IMG/VR virus record: IMGVR_UViG_3300022925_000171
Coordinates: 1-24,216 of that record
DNA from: a virus
DNA length: 24,216 nt
Direction: 5' to 3' (one strand)
A program made the translations under genes and the position numbers. Below the pieces are notes generated by a model that searched no databases, had not been told where the DNA came from, and saw only the letters and a list, made by a program, of their open reading frames with translations. Shown piece after piece: positions 2,762 to 23,857 of the stretch; within the stretch, counting starts at the first letter, position 1; the number at the start of each line of letters is the position of its first letter.

Positions 2762-4582
2762 TTATTTTAATCCTGGTCCAAAACCTGACTTATTTGTTAT
2801 TGGGTTACCAGATACTTCTGTTTTTTTCTTATAAATAAAGTTTTTATATGAAGTACTAAATCCACCTTCTACACCTGGTTTTGTTTTTGTATCTTGCTTA
2901 GTCCAAGTACCGATGTAAGGTACGAATGGATTTTCTTGTGTATACCCATCGTTTTTTAATACAATCGGTCCGTCTACATAAACTTGAGTTCCTTTGTCAT
3001 TATAACCATAAAAGTATAACCCATCATCTAAAATTGCAATACCAAATGTAGCATATGTAGTTGGGTTAGGGAATGTACTATACATTTGCTCCCATTTTGC
3101 TTCTAATTTATTATATCCATTTGTTCCAGATACTTCAGTATTCCAACTCATCTGACTTGATGGGTCTGATGGATTACCATTAGGTAAATTTGCTTGTGGA
3201 CCTGAAGGTTGCCATTTAGTTTCCATAATGTCAATCTCTCTTCCGTATTGAGAGTATTGTTGTGAACCACCTTTTGGACTGTTGTCCAAATAATATTTAT
3301 TATCCCACATCATAACTTTTCTTTCTGCCAAATAAAAGGTTTCACAAAATAAACTATCAGGATAAGTACCTCCACCATTGGAACCTATTTTAATATCTAT
3401 TTGCCATACTCCATCCATCGCAACTCCATAAGCGCTGTCATCAGTTTTCATATCTGAATCTAAAACATTAACAGGGTACGCTCTACTACCATAATTGTAT
3501 CCGTAAACTGAATCACCTGTTTGTTTTGTACTCTGAACTGTTGAAGTGCCGTCAGATGTCCATCTTAATGTATCATCAAAATTATAGTCTTGTGTCCAAT
3601 ATGAACCTGGAGTACTAAAAGGTTTTTTACCTGTTTGACCACCTGTCCAATCAATTAGTCCTGTAGTGTATGGTGGTGGATAAGAAGATTTACCATACGA
3701 AACATCATATGAATTATCACCTACTTTAGTAAAAGTTAAAACACTATCAGGTTTATTATTACCATCCATTGATACTGGTGGGTCTAAAGGAGCTCCACCA
3801 ACAGGGTCAGTAAAATGTACTGTAGTAGTAGTAAGGTAAGTAGTCCCGTTTAATATATCTAAAACTAAGTACGCCCAATCACCTCCATTTACATTATTCC
3901 AAGTACCATTTGGTGCCAATTCAGTACCTACTGCTGGTGAAAAGTCTTGATGTCCCGATTGTGGATTACCTTGAGATACTCTAAGAGTACCCTGTGAAGA
4001 AGTATTTTTCCATGTTTGATTAGACATAGTTGATAAGTTACTTTCAGGACATATACATGGGTCTTTAAAAGGACATGGACAACCTTCTAAACCTACAGGT
4101 GTGACTTTACCTGTGGTAGCATCCACACTTACAAAACCTTTACTAGTTGTAAAAATGTATTGTGCGAATTCAAAATCTGGTCCTAATGGTCTTCTTAAAA
4201 CTACCACAGACCAATCCGCCTCACCTTCAACTCCAGTACCATAACCTGCTTCTAATAATAATTCTTCAGCCTCCTCTAATGTGAGTTTAACAGGTAAATT
4301 AATAACCTCATCCTCTAAAAAGGGTTCATTGATAACTATAGATTTGGTTAATCCGTTAGAAGTACATAATACTTCAATAGTTGTATTATTTTTACCAGCA
4401 AAAACTGATTTTACTCCATTTAATTCTTTAGTTGCGCTAGATTCATAAAAAAGTGCGGTCTTATCAATACCTAAAGCTACTTCTTCAGTCTTCTCAACCA
4501 TTTCATTAAATGTGAGTTTTTCCGTGTTGGAACAACCCATTAAGAGTAATCCCGTAATTAATGTTAATAATGTTTTTTTCAT
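2762..4582 (-). CDS. Large lipoprotein with PepSY-like region and GH16-like EIDIxE motif
   Basis: 606 residues. The signal ends in LLLMGC (Cys17), a lipoprotein signal. Residues about 98-163 resemble a PepSY-type domain: a helix rich in Glu (LTLEEAEELL), then a strand ending FVSVDATTGKVTPV. A Cys cluster follows (CPCPFKDPCIC, 168-178). The C-terminal about 400 residues are rich in Gly, Thr, Trp and Tyr and look like beta-sandwich sequence. They contain REIDIMETKW, where Glu449, Asp451 and Glu454 fit the catalytic EIDxxE pattern of GH16 glucanases. A GH16-like polysaccharide hydrolase on the cell surface is the best guess; a non-enzymatic beta-sandwich remains possible. It lies downstream of another lipoprotein gene and ends in a terminator. 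Confidence 0.65.
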   Translation of the reverse strand: MKKTLLTLITGLLLMGCSNTEKLTFNEMVEKTEEVALGIDKTALFYESSATKELNGVKSVFAGKNNTTIEVLCTSNGLTKSIVINEPFLEDEVINLPVKLTLEEAEELLLEAGYGTGVEGEADWSVVVLRRPLGPDFEFAQYIFTTSKGFVSVDATTGKVTPVGLEGCPCPFKDPCICPESNLSTMSNQTWKNTSSQGTLRVSQGNPQSGHQDFSPAVGTELAPNGTWNNVNGGDWAYLVLDILNGTTYLTTTTVHFTDPVGGAPLDPPVSMDGNNKPDSVLTFTKVGDNSYDVSYGKSSYPPPYTTGLIDWTGGQTGKKPFSTPGSYWTQDYNFDDTLRWTSDGTSTVQSTKQTGDSVYGYNYGSRAYPVNVLDSDMKTDDSAYGVAMDGVWQIDIKIGSNGGGTYPDSLFCETFYLAERKVMMWDNKYYLDNSPKGGSQQYSQYGREIDIMETKWQPSGPQANLPNGNPSDPSSQMSWNTEVSGTNGYNKLEAKWEQMYSTFPNPTTYATFGIAILDDGLYFYGYNDKGTQVYVDGPIVLKNDGYTQENPFVPYIGTWTKQDTKTKPGVEGGFSTSYKNFIYKKKTEVSGNPITNKSGFGPGLK

Positions 4583-5420: not shown

Positions 5421-5513
5421 AAGTTATTGTTTTTTTTTAAAAGTACTAAATGAGATATTTTAGTGTATAGTTAATTATTTATTTATATATATTAAGAACT
5501 AACATTAAAGCCT
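5421..5513. other. AT-rich divergent intergenic region
   Basis: This gap separates minus-strand genes (5420 leftwards) from plus-strand genes (5514 rightwards), so promoters in both directions are expected. It is very AT-rich, with TATTTATATATAT-like sequence at about 5475-5490, but I find no good TAnnTTTG box in either direction. Confidence 0.4.
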
Positions 5514-5867
5514 ATGGCACACCCTATTTTACATTGTAAATCTTCAGCTAAACAATTTGGTGGAAAACCTGAAGACTATTTACACATACACAATTGGTTT
5601 GATGAAACTAAATCTTGGATAGGTACATCCTTTCATAGAGTATTTAGACATCATTCTGAAGGTATATTTGAGTGTGAAAAAGTCTTTGGTGAGTCGTTTA
5701 GAAACTCTGACGGTAAAGAAGTTTTTGTTCGTTATGTCGGAGAACAACACGTTAGGGAAGATTGTAACAACTATATTCCATCCGCAAAAGAATGGGTCGA
5801 TGCATTAAATAATAATGAAAAACCTATATGGATGATGAAAACAATGAAACTAAAGTTCACTGACTAA
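5514..5867 (+). CDS. DUF6915-like conserved protein
   Basis: 117 residues matching a small conserved family found in bacteria and phages, which I recognise as DUF6915. Typical blocks are MAHPILHCKSSAKQFGGKPEDY at the start, HNWFDETK, FRHHSEGIFECEKVFG, and VRYVGEQHVREDC followed by IPSAKEWV. Many conserved His residues suggest a metal or nucleic-acid role, but no function is established that I know of. It is the first gene of a two-gene plus-strand unit. Confidence 0.75.
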   Translation: MAHPILHCKSSAKQFGGKPEDYLHIHNWFDETKSWIGTSFHRVFRHHSEGIFECEKVFGESFRNSDGKEVFVRYVGEQHVREDCNNYIPSAKEWVDALNNNEKPIWMMKTMKLKFTD

Positions 5868-5882
5868 TATTTATTAATAAAA
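5867..5882 (+). promoter_or_regulatory. Recurrent ATATTTATTAATAAAA motif before the 222-residue gene
   Basis: A 16-base sequence starting at the last base of the preceding stop codon, with its ATATTTAT core 13 bases before the ATG at 5888. The identical 16 bases occur at the same distance before the lysozyme start (18547-18562, minus strand), and a near match precedes 11331. Candidate phage-specific promoter, by inference only. Confidence 0.4.
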
Positions 5883-5887
5883 GAATT

Positions 5888-6556
5888 ATGGAACAGAAAT
5901 ATAAAGTATTATTTAATTTAATTAATCCCGCACTTTTAAAATCCAACTGTAAAAAAGCCACAATGGAATTTGATGAGGGATTTAGCCCATATCAAGATGG
6001 TTATTACTGTAATCATATGAATGGTAAACGTATATCATTTTTAGTTCCTGTTGAACGTGAACTAAGTGAATATGTAGAAGAATATGTTGGTGATAACACA
6101 TGGCATGAAGAGACGGGTTCAGAGTATTATACTTACGAACTTGAAATTAACTCAGAATTTAGAAGTGTTGAAATATTTGGGACTTACACTGTTTATGATA
6201 CTGAAGAAATTAATGAAACTGTAATAGACCAAGATGAAGAGCCTGATGAATTAAAACCTATCTTTGATTATTTAGAAGAGGTTGGTTCTGATATCTTAGA
6301 AGTCAATGTAGATGCTGGTGGTGATAGTGGATGGGTCCATGACGAAAATGATGATGTGAATGGTAAAACTATTCAAACATCAGAACAAATGTCAGATGTT
6401 TGTTACAGGTTATTAAGTCAACATCCAGGATGGGAAATCAATGAAGGTTCTTATTCCGTATTCACATTTGACCCACACAGACGTATTATCATATGGGAAT
6501 TTGCTTATAATACTGAAGAACAAGCAAGAGAATTAATTTCAACTGAGAAATTTTAA
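5888..6556 (+). CDS. Acidic phage protein, unknown function
   Basis: 222 residues, rich in Asp and Glu (for example EEYVGDNTWHEE and DQDEEPDELKP). The C-terminal third has the pattern DAGGDSGWVHDENDD, then MSDVCYRLLSQHPGWEINEGSYSVFTFD, a module I remember from small phage and bacterial proteins of unknown function. No catalytic motif is seen. Its stop codon overlaps the stop of the convergent gene at 6553. Confidence 0.65.
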   Translation: MEQKYKVLFNLINPALLKSNCKKATMEFDEGFSPYQDGYYCNHMNGKRISFLVPVERELSEYVEEYVGDNTWHEETGSEYYTYELEINSEFRSVEIFGTYTVYDTEEINETVIDQDEEPDELKPIFDYLEEVGSDILEVNVDAGGDSGWVHDENDDVNGKTIQTSEQMSDVCYRLLSQHPGWEINEGSYSVFTFDPHRRIIIWEFAYNTEEQARELISTEKF

Positions 6557-6957
6557 GTTAATTTTTCACCAATTTTATCACCAAACATTAACTCACGTTT
6601 CCATTTCAAATCTTTGGATTTATAACTGAGGTAACTCTCAACACCCGAAATTAATGCATTTTCATAGGTATCATAATCCAAATCAGAAACACCTAAGTTA
6701 GTTTCATCACAGAGAATATCTTCTTCTTGCCCAAAATCATTTAGGTCTATTACCGAATAATAATATGAAAGTTCAGGACCATCATCCGCATCACGAAATG
6801 GAAGCGCTGTGATATAAACATGTTGATTACGTAACCAACTTAGAACGTCTTCCATATCAGGGTAACTCCTTAATACTGAAGTATCACCAACTTTTACAGT
6901 TTCAAAAGGATAGGTGCAAGTTTGTAGGTATTGAAATATTTTTTCTGTAATTTGCAT
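6553..6957 (-). CDS. Unknown 134-residue protein with its own promoter
   Basis: An acidic, soluble-looking protein with Tyr-rich stretches (ELSYYYSVIDL). No family recognised. It converges on the plus-strand gene with a 4-base overlap of the stops. A host-type promoter (6976-7006) lies directly upstream and would give a leader of about a dozen bases, so this gene is probably transcribed independently of the genes to its right. Confidence 0.65.
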   Translation of the reverse strand: MQITEKIFQYLQTCTYPFETVKVGDTSVLRSYPDMEDVLSWLRNQHVYITALPFRDADDGPELSYYYSVIDLNDFGQEEDILCDETNLGVSDLDYDTYENALISGVESYLSYKSKDLKWKRELMFGDKIGEKLT

Positions 6958-6975
6958 AATGTTATTTTATTTATA

Positions 6976-7006
6976 CAAACTTAAAATAAAAATTTTGATT
7001 AATCAA
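6976..7006 (-). promoter_or_regulatory. Bacteroidota-type promoter for the gene at 6957
   Basis: On the minus strand, TTG (7006-7004), 20 bases, then TAAGTTTG (6983-6976) fits the Bacteroidota consensus TTG-N19/20-TAnnTTTG. The expected start of transcription is near 6970, about 12 bases before the ATG. Confidence 0.6.
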
Positions 7007-7831
7007 CTATTTTTTTAACCTATTGAAGTCTTCCTCACTAACACCTTTAAAATCTACAGAATCACTATCCAAACCATAAGGGTGTGTTATTTCGTCTACG
7101 TAATTTCTTAATACATCACCAATCTCATATCCTATTTCATCAACCACAGAATCAGCTAGTTCAGGATTTTTACCTAATTCGTTGAAATCATAAGTTTCAC
7201 CGTCAGTCATTAGTGTAACTTGTGAATTATCTTCATTAATTATAAATTCAACATCATAATAAGCAAGATAAGATGTATCATTATCGAAAAGAGGATGATT
7301 AGTGTTTCCGGTATATATATCCATATTAACCTCATTCAAAAATACCTCCATTTCATAACCTCCTGAAGTAATTATAACTGGTTTACCTATATTGAGTTTT
7401 TGTTTTATTAAATCAAACAATTTCCCAATCCCACCAAAATATTCTATTTTGTAAGATAATATCTTTTTACGGTCATCCTTATTACTATCATCTAAATTTA
7501 GATAATGATAAATAGGTTTGGCTTCAATACCTTTATCGTCCCAATATTTAAATAGTGTTGATTTTGTTTGGTCATTTTCACTTAATTGTTCAGAATCACG
7601 TAAAAAATAGTCTCCGTTTTTAATTAAAAACTCATAGAAATAATTTAAGGGTATTAGTTTTTTAGTGTCCTTATACTTAATTCGTAAATCTTCGTAAACC
7701 TCATCCATCATACCTAACTCTAACCCTTTTATAAGTTCACTGAATACATCAGAAAATAATGCAAACATTTTAACGTCAACACCGGTATATTGCTCGTGAA
7801 CCATATTTTCTAAAAGTTTAAGTAGTTTCAT
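7007..7831 (-). CDS. Unknown 274-residue protein with possible N-terminal cleavage tag
   Basis: The start MKLLKLLENMVHEQ is an amphipathic helix ending in VHE|Q, which fits the (I/L/V)xE pattern used by T4-type prohead proteases; this suggests, but does not show, a virion protein. The rest is acidic and mixed in structure, with no motif I recognise. The gene lies 15 bases after the P-loop protein gene, and an ATATTTAT sequence (7837-7844) sits directly before its start. Confidence 0.6.
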   Translation of the reverse strand: MKLLKLLENMVHEQYTGVDVKMFALFSDVFSELIKGLELGMMDEVYEDLRIKYKDTKKLIPLNYFYEFLIKNGDYFLRDSEQLSENDQTKSTLFKYWDDKGIEAKPIYHYLNLDDSNKDDRKKILSYKIEYFGGIGKLFDLIKQKLNIGKPVIITSGGYEMEVFLNEVNMDIYTGNTNHPLFDNDTSYLAYYDVEFIINEDNSQVTLMTDGETYDFNELGKNPELADSVVDEIGYEIGDVLRNYVDEITHPYGLDSDSVDFKGVSEEDFNRLKK

Positions 7832-7846
7832 TATAGATAAATATAT

Positions 7847-8437
7847 CTAAAAAGTAGTTTGCCACTCTTTAAAATTCTTTCTATCCTCCTTACTAATCCA
7901 TAGTTCATGACCTTCTAAAGAACTATGATTAATCTCAACCCAATTAGGTACTAATTTTCTTTGATGGTTTTCCCATATATGGTACGTTAGTTGTTCTATA
8001 CTTTTATTAAGATAGTTTGCACTTTCAGGAAAATCTTCCATAACCATTTGTCTATAGACTTGCCACTCATAACGATGGCTTTGGTCTTTAACAAAAGGAT
8101 TTCTATCTGAATACCTTTCAATACTATTCATGTCTTTATACATAAAAACAACTAGAACATCTTTTAACTGTTCAGGTATTCGATGTAGATGACAAGATTG
8201 TGATGGACCAAATGAAGAATACTTTGAGTTTTTATGTTTATTATGAAAGGTTACGATTCCATCTTCTGACTCATATTCATCTAAAGACCAAGCAAATTCA
8301 CCTCTTAATTCAGGTAAGTTAAAATCATGAGCAATTACTTTGGTGGTTATTTTATTTCCAGCCCCATGTGGTCCTGTTACAATAATCTTATTGAATTTAC
8401 CAATAACATCTTTTAAACTATTATAATCTCTATTCAT
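7847..8437 (-). CDS. P-loop-like NTPase or transferase
   Basis: 196 residues. A strand KIIVTGPHGAGNKITTK (about 17-33) leads into a helix and resembles a Walker A loop in which Asn-Lys-Ile-Thr replaces the usual G-K-S/T ending. A second strand, DVLVVFMYKD, follows at about 93-102. This fits a P-loop kinase or sulphotransferase-like fold, but I see no clear Walker B or lid motif and cannot name a substrate. The start codon overlaps the stop of the upstream 47-residue gene (ATGA), so translation is probably coupled. Confidence 0.6.
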   Translation of the reverse strand: MNRDYNSLKDVIGKFNKIIVTGPHGAGNKITTKVIAHDFNLPELRGEFAWSLDEYESEDGIVTFHNKHKNSKYSSFGPSQSCHLHRIPEQLKDVLVVFMYKDMNSIERYSDRNPFVKDQSHRYEWQVYRQMVMEDFPESANYLNKSIEQLTYHIWENHQRKLVPNWVEINHSSLEGHELWISKEDRKNFKEWQTTF

Positions 8438-8577
8438 TTTTTACAAATTTTATTACTTGCGTAGTCCTTTAAAATATTAGGAAACCAAGCGTGTATTATT
8501 AGTGCAATACCTGAACTCATTGCTATCTTCCAATGTTTCCAATACGTCATATTAGTTTCTTTTAAATGGTTACTCAT
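8434..8577 (-). CDS. DUF6356-like 47-residue membrane protein
   Basis: A frame from ATG 8577 to TGA 8434. The sequence has YWKHWKIAMSSGIALIIHAWFPNI followed by DYASNKI, which matches the pattern of the DUF6356 family as I remember it: an HxxxA start, then a short hydrophobic helix containing IHAxxP, then an aS.KI end. It overlaps the stop of the upstream gene by 8 bases and its TGA shares bases with the next ATG (ATGA). Overlap at both ends plus the family pattern make it very likely a real gene. Function is unknown. Confidence 0.75.
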   Translation of the reverse strand: MSNHLKETNMTYWKHWKIAMSSGIALIIHAWFPNILKDYASNKICKK

Positions 8578-8962
8578 TTTTTTTAATATTTTCAGTTATT
8601 ATTTTTTCTAATTCTTCACCATACAGATTTGGAAACTCATTTTTAACCATTTTAAGAGGTATGGTTATATTTTTATAATCTTCTTGATGTGCCTCGTCAA
8701 TAATAAATTTATAAAAACCAATACTCTGTTTATCTCTAAAAACTTCTCTTATTATTTTTTGTATATGACTATATTCTTTATTCCATAAATTGACACCTGT
8801 TACGTTTTGTGCTTTACCCCATATAAACTTAACTTTTGGTGTAATCTCTATAACGTAATTTTGAATACTATCTTCAAAAATATCCCTAATATAAAGTTCA
8901 TTTTTATAGTTCCTCTCTATCACATAAAACCTTTGAATGAAATCAATTATATTTTTTTCCAT
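8570..8962 (-). CDS. Unknown 130-residue protein
   Basis: A charged, helix-rich protein with aromatic residues spaced through the N-terminal half (FIQRFYVIERNYKNELYI). No motif or family recognised. It starts exactly at the stop of the upstream 60-residue gene and overlaps the DUF6356-like gene downstream, so it is part of the operon running from 10950. Confidence 0.6.
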   Translation of the reverse strand: MEKNIIDFIQRFYVIERNYKNELYIRDIFEDSIQNYVIEITPKVKFIWGKAQNVTGVNLWNKEYSHIQKIIREVFRDKQSIGFYKFIIDEAHQEDYKNITIPLKMVKNEFPNLYGEELEKIITENIKKNE

Positions 8963-11031: not shown

Positions 11032-11331
11032 TTAAGTACCTATAACTAAATCATCATAATTTAGTTTTTCCATACCTTTTAGCTCTTCCTCAGCCTCATC
11101 GTACATAAAAGATTTTACAACAGACACTAAACCTTGTTCAGATTGTGCTATTTTACTTTCCATCCAATCTTCAAGTTGTTCACCATCTTCCATTTGTTCC
11201 CACATTTTATAGGCTAATGTTGCAATAGTAAATAACTGTTGTTTGGCCATATAAGAACCTTCATGAGACCCTTCTTTGATATTTGATTTTAATCTACGTA
11301 ACTGAGATTCTGTTATTATTATATTTGACAT
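11032..11331 (-). CDS. Small conserved T4-like phage protein with possible N-terminal tag
   Basis: 99 residues. The N-terminus, IIITESQLRRL followed by NIKEGSHEGSYMAK, contains two (I/L)xE sites (ITE|S and IKE|G) of the sort cut by T4-type prohead proteases. The rest (AKQQLFTIATLAYKMWEQM, then LEDWMESKIAQSEQGLVSVVKSFMYDE) matches my memory of a helical module common in large T4-like phages, in which a paired helix contains W-x-x-x-K-I. I know of no proven function; a packaged or capsid-associated protein is the most likely role. It is a single-gene unit flanked by terminators. Confidence 0.7.
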   Translation of the reverse strand: MSNIIITESQLRRLKSNIKEGSHEGSYMAKQQLFTIATLAYKMWEQMEDGEQLEDWMESKIAQSEQGLVSVVKSFMYDEAEEELKGMEKLNYDDLVIGT

Positions 11332-15719: not shown

Positions 15720-17975
15720 TTAGTGTTTCTTGAATTCTGTTGACGTTTCAATACCAACAATTCCGTCAATCAAATTTAAACCATTATCTTTTTGGAACTT
15801 CTTAACCGCTCTCATTGTATAAGGACCATAGATTCCATCAATCCCAGCATCCCCTAAATCGTAACCTTCTTTATCTAAAATTGTTTGGATTTCTTCAACT
15901 CCTTTACCTTGTGAACCCATTGATATTAATTCAGAGTTATCACCGTTGTTAACAATATCCGTAATACTTAAATCTTCACGTGCAATTTTTCCCTCAACTT
16001 TATCAACAACTTGTCCTGGTTCAATAACAATTAAATCTCCCCCATCAAGACTATCTTTTAAAAATGGCCATGGGTCAATAGTTCCTCTTTTATACCCACC
16101 TCTTTTCTCATACATCGAAAAGTGTAAGTGTGGATGGGTTCCTTTAGCGTTTCCTGTATCACCAACTGTACCTATGAATGTGCCTTTTTTAATATCGTCA
16201 CCTTTACTTATATTATCAGATACTTGGTCTAAGTGTGCATAATAATAAACTATACCATTTAATAATACACTAACTGTCTTACCACCAGTAGTTCTATCTT
16301 TTCTTCTAACTTTAATCACTTCTCCATCCGTAGCTGAAATAATTGGAGTACCCTTAGGTGCAAATATATCAATTCCTAAATGTCCTCCTCTGTGTTGATG
16401 TTTAGCGTCACCCGCCCCATAATCACTATTATGAATCGCCTCGTCTTTATCTAATACTTTTTTCTTACCTCTACCTAATCCTGAGGAATCATAACCAACA
16501 TTGAATTCTTCATTACCAATTGGAAATATAAAACCTATTGCTTCATTTAAAACCGATTCATTTAAATTTTTAGATTCATTAATCTTTTCTTTAAGTTTTC
16601 TAACAAATTCATTTTGAATCATTTTAGTAAACTTAACATAAGGTGAGTCACCTTTATCTTTATTGTATTTATATTTACCTTCAGGTTTTCTCTTACCTCT
16701 ACCGAAATAATTAAGTGCCGATATATTAGTAATACATTTATGTCCTCCTGAGTTTGCTTGAATCATTTCCCACGCAGGTACACCTAATTTGTCTAATATT
16801 GCCCACTGGTCTTCCGTTAATTGAGTTGAAGGTGTATCCATGATGTCTTTTAACTTTTCCATATATTCATCACCACCATCAATAGAACGTACTTTATCAC
16901 CATAAAATGCTTCTAAATCTGCATTTGTAAAACCAACTGATTCATCACCAAATTGTTTGTTACCTTCAGATATCCACTTTATTGTAGATAATGGAATTAT
17001 TTTATCCTTTAATTGACTCTCCCATTTACTTAACACTTCTTGAGCAATCTCACCTAAATTAACACCTTTTAGTTCTCTTTCTTTTTTAAATGGGTTACAA
17101 GATGCTTGTACTAATCCCATAGGCCAAGCAATAACTAAGAAATCAGCGTCAGGGTTATTTTCAAATGGTGTGTATCTATCATAAGAACCTGGTTTAAACA
17201 TTGAACCTCCACCATATTGAACTATAATATTATCGTCCACATATACTTTTTCACTTTCTTTTTGTTTTTGAATGTAATCTTTTTGATTTAAATCCATTTC
17301 ATCAGGAAGGGCATATCCTCTCTCCGCCGCGATTCTATTAATATTTTGAAATATATTTAACAACGATGGGTTAGAAGTCATAACTAATTCCTCCATAAAT
17401 CCAGGTTTATTCTTATAGGCTAACATTAATTTGTTAGTCGCCAATCCTAAAGCTGTTTTATTTTTTTGTAATGATTCGTCTTTTTGAAGTTTAAAAACAA
17501 AATTCATAATATCTTTAGGTTTTAATCCGTACTTCGCAAAATCTGCAGAATCAACTGTAGATATTAACCTTATATCATCAGAAGTAAAAATATCTTTTGG
17601 AGACATTATCTGCGATAAGGTTTCAACATTAGACCTTGATGACCTGAAAGAAGTTGAAGTCTCATCTTCAACACCTGTTTGACTATCATGGTGGTCCGTG
17701 TGGACAACAAACATTGGTTTACCGTGGGCGAAGTCAACTAAAACCGGCATAGTATCTCCTTGAGCGTCTTGTTTTTTAACAGTGAACTCTTTATCACCAT
17801 ACTGTATTATCTCAGAATCAACAACTTTAATTCCGTTATCTTCTAAATAATTTTTCATAGCTAAGGCAGTTGTAACACCGTCTAAATCTTGGTGGAAATA
17901 AATTTTAGCCTTTTTATATCTGTCGGCTAACGCCTTCATATTCCTTAGTCCCGATTCTTTAATTAATTTTTTCAT
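15720..17975 (-). CDS. DHH/DHHA1 phosphoesterase fused to M23 endopeptidase and peptidoglycan-binding domain
   Basis: 751 residues in one uninterrupted frame. Residues about 20-420 are a DHH-family phosphoesterase (RecJ/NrnA type): HQDLDG (28-33), LVDFAHG with Asp81, VHTDHHDS with the DHH at 94-96, VDSAD with Asp142, and a late SGGHKC (409-414) like the DHHA1 GGGH. Residues about 515-640 are an M23 peptidase with zinc ligands in GGHLGID (His532, Asp536) and HPHLHF (His616, His618). Residues about 685-750 are a PG_binding_1-like domain (GIDGIYGPYTMRAVKKFQ). The linker has INES, LNES and VLNE|A (465-479), and the N-terminus LIKE|S; both fit T4-type prohead protease sites. The start overlaps the lysozyme stop by 4 bases. 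A cytoplasmic nuclease joined to a wall hydrolase is odd unless the protein is cleaved or carried in the virion. Confidence 0.9.
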   Translation of the reverse strand: MKKLIKESGLRNMKALADRYKKAKIYFHQDLDGVTTALAMKNYLEDNGIKVVDSEIIQYGDKEFTVKKQDAQGDTMPVLVDFAHGKPMFVVHTDHHDSQTGVEDETSTSFRSSRSNVETLSQIMSPKDIFTSDDIRLISTVDSADFAKYGLKPKDIMNFVFKLQKDESLQKNKTALGLATNKLMLAYKNKPGFMEELVMTSNPSLLNIFQNINRIAAERGYALPDEMDLNQKDYIQKQKESEKVYVDDNIIVQYGGGSMFKPGSYDRYTPFENNPDADFLVIAWPMGLVQASCNPFKKERELKGVNLGEIAQEVLSKWESQLKDKIIPLSTIKWISEGNKQFGDESVGFTNADLEAFYGDKVRSIDGGDEYMEKLKDIMDTPSTQLTEDQWAILDKLGVPAWEMIQANSGGHKCITNISALNYFGRGKRKPEGKYKYNKDKGDSPYVKFTKMIQNEFVRKLKEKINESKNLNESVLNEAIGFIFPIGNEEFNVGYDSSGLGRGKKKVLDKDEAIHNSDYGAGDAKHQHRGGHLGIDIFAPKGTPIISATDGEVIKVRRKDRTTGGKTVSVLLNGIVYYYAHLDQVSDNISKGDDIKKGTFIGTVGDTGNAKGTHPHLHFSMYEKRGGYKRGTIDPWPFLKDSLDGGDLIVIEPGQVVDKVEGKIAREDLSITDIVNNGDNSELISMGSQGKGVEEIQTILDKEGYDLGDAGIDGIYGPYTMRAVKKFQKDNGLNLIDGIVGIETSTEFKKH

Positions 17976-18541
17976 GATAAAAACATATTACTTTCTTTTT
18001 CTCTTCTATTCTTTAAACCAGAATTATTGGCTTTGTATTTTAGAATAGCTTCTCCCGCTTTTTTATTTTGACCCGATTTAAGGTATTGAATAAATCTTGA
18101 CATCCTCACTGAATCACATCCTGAATTAAAAACTAATGAAACCAATGAATCAAATTCTCCTTGTGTTAACATATAAGTTTTTAAACCTTTATCTTTCCAT
18201 TCACTTAAAAATCTTCTAACACAATCTGCGGAAATAGTTGCGTCGGAGTATAATAATTTAAGTGCCTGTTGTTTAGTTATAACTAACCCTTCTTTAACAT
18301 CACTTCCTGTGTGACCATAACCTATAGTCCAAATACCACTAGTGTCTTTGTAAGCTTTAAGTACAGGTTCTTTGATAGAACCCACAGGTTTCTTAGGGTC
18401 ACCTTCTTCGAATTTTATAAAATCCCAAAAGTTTTGACTAGCCCTCATTTTAGTACCATCTTTCCTTACCGTATCATTTTCAAGTAAATACAGTTTTTGT
18501 ATATAATGTTTTTCTTCTTCTTTTAATATAATACGTGACAT
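17972..18541 (-). CDS. GH24-type lysozyme (endolysin or virion lysozyme)
   Basis: I place the start at ATG 18541 (MSRIILKEEEKHY; 189 residues). An ATG 27 codons upstream is in frame but would read through the terminator at 18572-18599. Catalytic signature of phage lysozymes: FEEG (44-47) supplies the Glu, AYKDTSGIWTIGYGHTG (64-79) supplies Asp66 and Thr72. Between them about 11 residues more than in T4 lysozyme are inserted. The tail end NSGLKNRREKES with R-R-E is also usual. There is no signal peptide. The N-terminus ILKE|E resembles the tag on other proteins here. It overlaps the DHH-M23 gene, so both wall hydrolases are made together. Confidence 0.9.
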   Translation of the reverse strand: MSRIILKEEEKHYIQKLYLLENDTVRKDGTKMRASQNFWDFIKFEEGDPKKPVGSIKEPVLKAYKDTSGIWTIGYGHTGSDVKEGLVITKQQALKLLYSDATISADCVRRFLSEWKDKGLKTYMLTQGEFDSLVSLVFNSGCDSVRMSRFIQYLKSGQNKKAGEAILKYKANNSGLKNRREKESNMFLS

Positions 18542-21394: not shown

Positions 21395-22160
21395 TTTTTA
21401 GTTCTTGAATTTTTATTGTCTGAAAAATATAATTCATTACCTTTCTTTTTATAATCGCAAGTAAACCACCTTCTAAATCATATTCTTGTTCAAATTTAAC
21501 TCTAAATATTGGTAGTCTTTTATCTATTTTTTCATGTGGTTGATATCTAGGACCATCTTTTAATTGGTGATTTTGTTTTATTAATGATATAACATCTTCT
21601 AAATTTTCACCTATAATATCTCCTTCATATATTTTACTTATATCACATTTGTTTTCTCCTGATTTATCTGATAATAACCTAATAAAGTATTGGTAAATAT
21701 AACCTTTACCTTTGTAATTGAAGTAAATGAAACCTCTACCTGGTTTTTCAGTTTTTATTTTATCCCCATTAAAAACAACACTCACCAATGTAGCATCATA
21801 AATTAAAGAATAAATAGACTTACCAATAAGAAATAAATCGGTTAATTTATCTTTTGAGTATTCGACTATTTTGAATATTTCATCAATATTTTCTTTAGTA
21901 CTAATTAACTTTTTATAGTTTAAATCACTTAATAATATTTCATCGTCAATATCTTCAGGTTCTCTATTTAAAATAAGGTACTGTCCTCTCTCTTTTAAAG
22001 AACCTATACTCGCTAAATGTAGTGCTAGTTCTTGAAAAGATGGGTATAATACGAAGTTATCAAAGTCTTCATTGACTTTGGCCATGTAGTCTAATAGAAC
22101 ATATTGTTTGTGTTCTAAATCTATAGGTTCTTGTAAAATCCAGTCTGTATTTAATCTCAT
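21384..22160 (-). CDS. Conserved large-phage protein, unknown function
   Basis: I choose ATG 22160 (MRLNTDWILQEPIDLEHKQYVLLDY; 258 residues) since it forms an ATGA overlap with the stop of the previous gene. The upstream in-frame ATG lies within that gene. The opening, IDLEHKQYVLLDYMAKV, and YPSFQELALHLASIGSL match a protein I recall from T4-like phages of aquatic bacteria. No enzymatic motif seen. It is probably translated together with the preceding gene. Confidence 0.7.
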   Translation of the reverse strand: MRLNTDWILQEPIDLEHKQYVLLDYMAKVNEDFDNFVLYPSFQELALHLASIGSLKERGQYLILNREPEDIDDEILLSDLNYKKLISTKENIDEIFKIVEYSKDKLTDLFLIGKSIYSLIYDATLVSVVFNGDKIKTEKPGRGFIYFNYKGKGYIYQYFIRLLSDKSGENKCDISKIYEGDIIGENLEDVISLIKQNHQLKDGPRYQPHEKIDKRLPIFRVKFEQEYDLEGGLLAIIKRKVMNYIFQTIKIQELKNDD

Positions 22161-23857
22161 ATTCTCTCTAGTCTTCCTTGTTTCCAAAGATTGTAGTTGG
22201 GTCCAATCTTGTACCTAAAATAAGGGTAATCTTTGGCTCTGTAAAGACTAACGAGTCCAGCATCTTTCATTGAACTGAACATTGTTGAGAGATATCCTGA
22301 TAAAACTATCTTTTCAGGGTCTTTTTCTAAAACATTAATTAAAAAATCTCTTTTACTGGCTGGTTCATTTTGAGATTCTTTATCTCTAATATATTCTAAA
22401 AATCTGATGTAAGCATTGTCTGGATTCACACTAGCAAACCTATAATTTGAATGACTATTTTTAGGTCTCCAATATGTTATCTCGTCATTACCGACAGTCA
22501 TGAACTGTGAGTTTTCTTCTACGAATAAGTCCACAATTTTATACAAAACATATGTAAATAATGATTTATCCACTCTATCAGGACTTATCTCTTGACCTGT
22601 TTTGTTTTCTACATATTCAATAGCCTCATATATTGGTCTTTCATCTAAAACATTACTCTTGGTCGCATAAAATACAAAATCATCATCTTTGACAGTTAAT
22701 ACAAACTCTCTCACTCCCCATGTACCTATTAGTTTACCAGATGTAAAACCTTGTAATCTAAGTGGTTTACCATCTATCATGTAACTATATCTTTTAAAAT
22801 TAAGATTTTGAGTAAGTTTAGAATCACCACTAAATATTTTACGGAACATATCAATAATGTTCACACTCCTATCCCATTTATGATTTTGAGTAATGTCATT
22901 TTGAATAGCATCAAAGGCCGGAAGTGTCTTAATTAAACCTAAAAGATTTTCATTGACAACATCCTTAGCATCATATAGAGTCATTCTATTATTTTGACTA
23001 TCATAATGAATTGCAATTTTATAATAATCATTAGTAGGTTGCATATTTTTATTTATTAAATAATACAATGGACCCTTTGAATTGTATTGTTCAAATCTAT
23101 TACCGAACTGTGTTGATGCTGTACACCATCTGGTACCTGACCCATAATAACATGAAGAATCTTTGGTTAATGGTTTTACCACTAATATTCTATCGTCTTC
23201 ATATATCCTTTCAGTACCTTCCTTTAATTTTGACCTTTGTTGACTTTTTGTATCACCATAAACCTCTAATGTATCTATAAGGTCATGAATATTTTTATAT
23301 TGATTAATATCTTTGTATTGTAAGTTTTTTCTTACTCTATCAAATTTCTCAAGCCAATTAATTACACTATCTAAAGAAATAAAAGTATTACCAAAATCAT
23401 CAAAGTTTTTTTTGAGGACCCAATTTACATATTTGTAATTAGTTCTTTTGTTAAATTCGTTATCCAAGAATTCCTCTACTGTTTTTTGTAACTCAGGATT
23501 TTCATTAAACCTATTTAAAATATCTTCTCTTCTACCCTCACTTATAACGTCTACATATTTTTTTCTGTGTGGATTCTGACCTTCTGATAAATTATGTAAG
23601 GTTTTATTAATTGAGTCTTTAAAGTCTTTAAGGTGTTTTTCCGCATCTTTATTATTACCTGACTTTACCATTTTAATAAGGTGTGATAAATGTCCTCCCT
23701 CTGAATGGTAGTTAACATCTGTAAAAGATTTTAACAAATCTTCCATTTTTTTTATTGGAGTTTTTAGGCTTACTTTTAATCCTGATTTCAACATACCATT
23801 GTAATCGAAATCATCTGACCATTTATCTCCAATCTTGTATGTTTTTATGTTTGTCAT
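22157..23857 (-). CDS. Large phage protein with GTRWC domain and internal SEGRRED tag
   Basis: 566 residues in three parts. Residues 1-100 hold FTDVNYHSEGGHLSHLIKMVKSG, a helical segment common in large phages. At 104-117 VISEGRREDILNRF contains ISE|G, an (I/L)xE site followed by a block (EGRxEDIxxxF) that I remember as the N-terminus of many related phage proteins, so the first 107 residues may be a propeptide or a fused domain. Residues about 218-290 contain KDSSCYYGSGTRWCTAS and YYLIN, a domain with an invariant-looking GT(K/R)WC whose function I do not know. The C-terminal about 90 residues look like a winged helix. It is followed by an ATGA overlap with the next gene. Confidence 0.7.
   Translation of the reverse strand: MTNIKTYKIGDKWSDDFDYNGMLKSGLKVSLKTPIKKMEDLLKSFTDVNYHSEGGHLSHLIKMVKSGNNKDAEKHLKDFKDSINKTLHNLSEGQNPHRKKYVDVISEGRREDILNRFNENPELQKTVEEFLDNEFNKRTNYKYVNWVLKKNFDDFGNTFISLDSVINWLEKFDRVRKNLQYKDINQYKNIHDLIDTLEVYGDTKSQQRSKLKEGTERIYEDDRILVVKPLTKDSSCYYGSGTRWCTASTQFGNRFEQYNSKGPLYYLINKNMQPTNDYYKIAIHYDSQNNRMTLYDAKDVVNENLLGLIKTLPAFDAIQNDITQNHKWDRSVNIIDMFRKIFSGDSKLTQNLNFKRYSYMIDGKPLRLQGFTSGKLIGTWGVREFVLTVKDDDFVFYATKSNVLDERPIYEAIEYVENKTGQEISPDRVDKSLFTYVLYKIVDLFVEENSQFMTVGNDEITYWRPKNSHSNYRFASVNPDNAYIRFLEYIRDKESQNEPASKRDFLINVLEKDPEKIVLSGYLSTMFSSMKDAGLVSLYRAKDYPYFRYKIGPNYNLWKQGRLERI

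Follow-up and report, generated by a model that had tools for sequence, protein, structure and literature searches.

Why a phage should encode, in one reading frame, a phosphoesterase of the DHH type and an enzyme directed against the bacterial cell wall is the question raised by this locus. The window, that is, the whole stretch of DNA analysed, is the entire 24.2-kb virus record and probably a piece of a larger genome; it contains no head genes, and the fusion gene sits among auxiliary genes, outside the head cluster. The fusion frame (15720-17975, minus strand) runs uninterrupted from ATG to stop and encodes 751 amino acids. Its parts and the adjoining gene are as follows, a slash in a motif marking a cleavage position, predicted for the phages studied here:

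17955..17975, minus strand: N-terminal tag MKKLIKE (residues 1-7), a predicted capsid-targeting peptide with the prohead-protease site LIKE/S
16584..17954, minus strand: DHH/DHHA1-type phosphoesterase domain (residues 8-464), assigned by motifs, fold and conservation; metal ligands H28, D30, D32, D81, H95 and D142, GGH at 410-412
16536..16583, minus strand: junction INE/SKNLNE/SVLNE/AI (residues 465-480), with 3 predicted cleavage sites (after 467, 473 and 478)
16053..16535, minus strand: M23 peptidoglycan endopeptidase module (residues 481-641), Pfam match 531-624 (16104-16385); zinc ligands H532, D536, H616 and H618
15723..16052, minus strand: C-terminal wall-binding part (residues 642-751), PG_binding_1 at 689-744 (15744-15911)
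17972..18541, minus strand: GH24 phage lysozyme adjoining the fusion gene with a 4-base overlap (Phage_lysozyme, E=1e-26)

Pfam analysis of the fusion revealed a Peptidase_M23 domain (E=2.4e-22, residues 531-624) and a PG_binding_1 domain (E=1.2e-14, residues 689-744). The M23 module clears its cut-off (79.4 versus 28.7 bits) and contains the HxxxD and HxH motifs, and its four zinc ligands are invariant in 13 of 13 aligned M23 modules. A preliminary description of the window had reported a single frame with a full set of DHH motifs, intact M23 ligands and a wall-binding domain, and this was confirmed residue by residue (H28, D30, D32, G33, D81, D94-H95-H96, D142, G410-G411-H412, H532, D536, H616 and H618). 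The same in-frame fusion of DHH and wall hydrolase was seen again in many independent metagenome contigs, which rules out a sequencing or assembly artefact and also the case, raised in that description, that the two parts are always separate genes in homologues. No stop or frameshift occurs between residues 420 and 515 in the window, the exceptions being three relatives (L011, with its M23 part from 5228, L109 and L110) in which the frame is broken just past the start of the M23 module; at the break, L011 has a run of 10 A compared to 8 or 9 in relatives, which may be a natural indel or an assembly error. A programmed frameshift between the halves was rejected, as the poly-A indel of L011 and the frame breaks of L109 and L110 were the only cases and showed no conserved signal.

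The Pfam match of the DHH half is weak (residues 25-109, E=8e-4, 20.1 bits against a gathering score of 28.1), so that this half represents a divergent branch whose membership of the superfamily rests on motifs and fold. Motifs I-IV (HxDxDG, D, DHH and D) are all present. Among 18 non-redundant relatives neither the ligands nor the GGH motif varies, which still holds once huge-phage homologues of 48% identity are included. A PDB sequence search with this half returned nothing meaningful. The AF2 model of residues 1-480, built from a 27-sequence alignment with moderate confidence (mean pLDDT 68, pTM 0.63), had as its top fold matches solved enzymes of the DHH superfamily (pAp phosphatase, DhhP, RecJ, NrnA and PggH). 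The best Foldseek match was the pAp phosphatase 8a8k (E=5.9e-4, prob 1.0), and VIA-align gave Z=11.3 for PggH, 10.2 for 8a8k and about 8 for RecJ. The model thus supports a DHH-superfamily fold, while the close scores of PggH, pAp phosphatase and RecJ led us to withhold a substrate call. Because the ligands are conserved, the DHH half is likely to be enzymatically active. The opposite reading, in which catalysis has been lost and a packaged structural or nucleic-acid-binding protein brings wall enzymes into the head, appears very improbable: the low sequence match to catalytic DHH families (20 bits for Pfam DHH) and the presence of Cdc45, a non-catalytic protein of the same fold, among the fold matches would suit it, but the invariance of ligands and GGH in 18 relatives, down to 48% identity, argues against it.

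A first scan found 124 relatives of the DHH half in viral contigs, and a scan with its alignment found at least 542; one short-pattern scan of cellular genomes found none, a result that does not prove absence. Annotated phage records with the DHH half were uncultured huge phages only (634-735 kb). Their homologues have no lysin and carry another tag, KYxxF[IV]NE/E, which resembles the T4 tag MKTYQEFIAE/A; the enzyme is thus kept while its leader changes with the genome, which fits the expectation for a targeting peptide. In one 634-kb phage the homologue contains a winged-helix insertion (L096, LR745206.1, 3971-5962; HTH_45, E=3e-5, residues 286-346).

In the DHH family the junction is fixed at about residue 470 and what follows it varies. 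Five arrangements were observed, namely nothing, M23 with PG_binding (PGB), an M15-like peptidase with PGB, PGB with GH19, and M23 with two PGB and GH19, besides single cases of a different M23 (L159) and of another M15-like domain (L166). The label M15-like is based on visual recognition of SRHSxxDAVD...HLH and on a match to Extensin-like_C at chance level (E=0.33), and a PDB sequence search with this module gave nothing meaningful. The tree of 69 DHH domains requires at least 22 module changes, which may be losses from a multi-module ancestor or new gains, 25 of its 69 rows lack any wall enzyme, and in one pair identical DHH domains carry M23 on one and GH19 on the other. The M23 module also occurs as a separate gene directly after a tag ending in INE/S (L117 and L119) or ILTE/S (L120), and in another fusion, a 1064-residue chain, after LLIKE/S (L118); the GH19 module occurs as a separate gene after ILQE/N...NLTE/A (L206). 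The literature searched gave no description of a DHH-endolysin fusion, and the preliminary description knew of no other example of the domain pair; the latter statement has to be revised, given that the same DHH protein is fused to several other wall-hydrolase arrangements.

T4 gp21 cleaves after L/I-x-E, removing both a propeptide of 65 residues from gp23 and the capsid-targeting sequences, N-terminal peptides of about 10 residues that guide internal proteins into the head (PMC9026906). Of the relatives, the 198-kb G001 is T4-like, encoding an S77 (gp21-type) protease (E=1e-24) and gp23 (E=4e-63), and both genes are also present in G008, which has the DHH family, and in G009, which has the M23 module. 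A 169-kb contig of the same species as the window (G007) encodes the same 751-residue fusion, with an M23 half 100% identical to that of the window and a portal 95% identical to the G001 portal; it terminates within the protease orthologue, of which it contains only the gene start, and gp23 lies beyond the contig end. The gp23 of G001 reads LINE/A at residue 60, the expected cleavage place, where the capsid protein of the control, the Flavobacterium phage isolate immuto, reads IVSE/A. The capsid of the clade is related to that of immuto, from which Bacteroidota may be guessed as hosts. A search for an isolate or virion proteome containing the DHH fusion protein found none, and no virion proteome with tagged proteins was identified either.

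Candidate sites of the same kind lie at the start of the fusion (LIKE/S at residue 7) and at its junction (INE/S, LNE/S and LNE/A at 467, 473 and 478). MKKLIKE/S has the form of a T4-type capsid-targeting sequence, which comprises about 7-19 N-terminal residues, the last three being L/I-x-E. This motif occupies residues 5-7 in 18 of 18 non-redundant relatives, with E7 invariant, and the AF2 model has a pLDDT of about 31-34 in the first block of the chain, which includes the tag. N-terminal [LIF]xE is enriched proteome-wide in three genomes; the count of tag motifs was 70 of 238 versus 47 expected, so that many single matches are due to chance, as is frequent for a motif only three residues long. 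In the 31 distinct fused linkers, 61 L/I-x-E sites were found versus 14.9+-3.4 in shuffles. The motif is present in 27 of these linkers, the other 4 having V-x-E only, compared to 5 of 15 complete stand-alone DHH tails (p=4e-4), a contrast favoured by the shorter length of the tails.

The longer form [LI]NE[SA] exceeded shuffled expectation in G001 (16 versus 4.0+-1.6), G008 (17 versus 6.3+-2.6) and G007 (9 versus 3.4+-1.6), all of which encode this DHH family, and was not enriched in immuto (2 versus 3.8+-2.0). The sites of G001 fall in gp23, in the product of a gene lying between those of portal and protease (three INE/S), in tagged N-termini, in the fusion junction and in some other places, and 3 of the 9 sites of G007 are in the fusion junction. 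In the loci examined, the gene upstream of the DHH gene bears a tag as well, and encodes a GH24 lysozyme (window and L032), a lysozyme-like protein (L061 and L067) or another small protein (L056, L171 and L175; in the last two the L/I-x-E site is further in, at LNE/Q). In the window, the lysozyme tag reads MSRIILKE/EEKHYIQKLYLLE/N and orthologues are tagged too; placed by comparison, the start of this gene is likely 18541 rather than 18622.

Taken with the head genes, these motifs suggest that the fusion is probably a head-packaged polyprotein, whose MKKLIKE would act as a capsid-targeting peptide and bring the chain inside the prohead. Cleavage by the S77 protease after E7, which would remove the tag, and after E467, E473 and/or E478 in the junction would leave the mature head with the DHH phosphoesterase and the M23-PG_binding hydrolase as separate proteins. 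By analogy with T4 internal proteins, both would leave the head with the DNA; the hydrolase may loosen the peptidoglycan where the DNA enters, and nucleotides or short oligonucleotides in the cytoplasm, perhaps those used in signalling or RNA pieces that host defence has produced, may be the target of the DHH enzyme. Release of two enzymes by the protease is proposed because of the motifs, the predicted disordered linker and the existence of separate tagged versions. Most of the linker has a pLDDT below 50 (residues 470-516 and 518-530), the E467 site lying within a helix predicted with fair confidence. The alternative that the chain stays uncut, as a virion or cytoplasmic protein in which DHH and M23 act jointly, for instance during passage of the head content through the wall, needs no protease and would agree with the conservation of the in-frame fusion across many contigs. 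We regard it as improbable, as this long, predicted disordered linker holds three fitting protease sites, the M23 module is also encoded by tagged genes of its own and within a different fusion, and modules are exchanged while the DHH part is unchanged.

A function in lysis was weighed as well, with the M23, GH19 or M15-like parts acting late from the cytoplasm via a holin and the DHH part being an uncut passenger or regulator. The partner modules are all classical lysin domains with PG_binding_1, the neighbouring gene encodes a GH24 lysozyme, and endolysins are among the PHROG matches of the C-terminal half. Nevertheless, this explanation is rather unlikely, because a wall enzyme is absent from the DHH part in 25 of the 69 rows of the tree, so that its main role is not that of a lysin, and because cleavage-type motifs are located at the module borders. 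Furthermore, the chitinase gene adjoining the holin of immuto carries no tag, and G001 encodes, at another place, an amidase with PG_binding that lacks a tag and can carry out lysis, so that the fusion modules need not be taken as the lysis enzyme.

Among the three options of the preliminary description, a polyprotein cut in two and a virion protein are thus, in combination, better supported than a DHH part with a new substrate, on the basis of the predicted sites at the N-terminus and junction and of the second half being also a separate tagged gene. What it had missed is that one wall enzyme can be swapped for another, that the DHH part is often found by itself and that the sites match the capsid maturation site of the phage itself. 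A broader reading remains tentative, that of a widespread delivery platform of phages, in which the DHH protein, as an anti-defence enzyme, might be targeted to the capsid and carry with it whichever wall hydrolase is joined to it via prohead-protease sites, so that a single gene would load two or three enzymes that act separately into the head, in fixed ratio, for the very start of infection.

Other reading frames with similar features were observed. In the window, the protein of 22157-23857 (minus strand) is a second candidate polyprotein, whose N-terminal part of 107 residues ends in VISE (coordinate 23537) before GRREDILNRF; its relative in G001 begins MKLLNLIE/GRREDILNRF. It has a 'GTRWCTA' domain; L118 and several tagged proteins contain 'KWCT' stretches that resemble it. 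The L118 frame (5497-8781, plus strand) encodes the 1064-residue chain, which begins MSEYILSE and contains M23-PGB mid-chain, a 'TKWCTT' stretch, many L/I-x-E sites and, by eye, a ParB-like motif (ILDGNHRAQKAL); a shorter relative in G001 (49675-51267) adjoins the gp23 gene. A small protein of the window (11032-11331, minus strand; MSNIIITESQLRRLKSNIKEGS) has the same kind of tag and is conserved in G001 (147938-148237), L056 and L061. Finally, the frame at 2762-4582 (minus strand) encodes a predicted lipoprotein of 606 amino acids without a Pfam match, in which GREIDIMETKW resembles by eye a GH16-type active-site motif.

If the polyprotein reading is true, module borders marked by the L/I-x-E motif of the phage's capsid protease would provide a sequence rule by which cargo delivered in the virion could be recognised in uncultured T4-like phages, and the prohead protease would mature multi-enzyme cargo in addition to shell, core and single internal proteins. 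The family of more than 540 viral-contig relatives would then represent delivered DHH enzymes of marine phages, probably active as judged from their residues, which may act against nucleotide-based defence.

The proposed protein is of a known kind, that of head-packaged internal or polyvalent proteins, and what is new is the domain pair, the swappable modules and the predicted processing by a prohead protease. The T4 internal head proteins (IPI, IPII, IPIII and Alt) likewise begin with a short peptide that terminates in a gp21-type L/I-x-E, are encoded with T4-like head genes and differ as cargo between phages. However, T4 cargo consists of small proteins and an ADP-ribosyltransferase, whereas the fusion, the packaging of which we infer, has a DHH phosphoesterase followed by swappable wall hydrolases, with extra sites between modules. 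Polyvalent proteins of phages and conjugative elements combine unrelated enzyme domains in one chain, including peptidoglycan-attacking and nucleotide-targeting ones, and are predicted to be packaged and injected, their lysozyme domains being argued to open peptidoglycan at entry (Iyer et al., 2017; PMC5512222). The fusion, too, joins at least two enzymatic domains that are unrelated in their biochemistry; under the proposed reading it would enter the cell with the DNA. The main text of that study mentions neither DHH nor M23, and it ascribes processing to embedded zincin-like peptidases, whereas the sites of the fusion fit a separate prohead protease. In the part of Iyer et al. (2021; PMC7824862) that concerns them, jumbo-phage DHH phosphoesterases are proposed as counter-nucleotide or counter-defence phosphodiesterases, with no mention there of a wall-hydrolase fusion; the likeness is at the superfamily level, both being phage-encoded, and the fold matches of the fusion are enzymes acting on pGpG, pAp and nanoRNA. 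Phage endolysins and wall endopeptidases with M23 and PG_binding_1 share with the fusion the HxxxD and HxH ligands, a Pfam score far above the cut-off and the C-terminal PG_binding_1, to which the fusion adds an N-terminal DHH domain and predicted protease sites.
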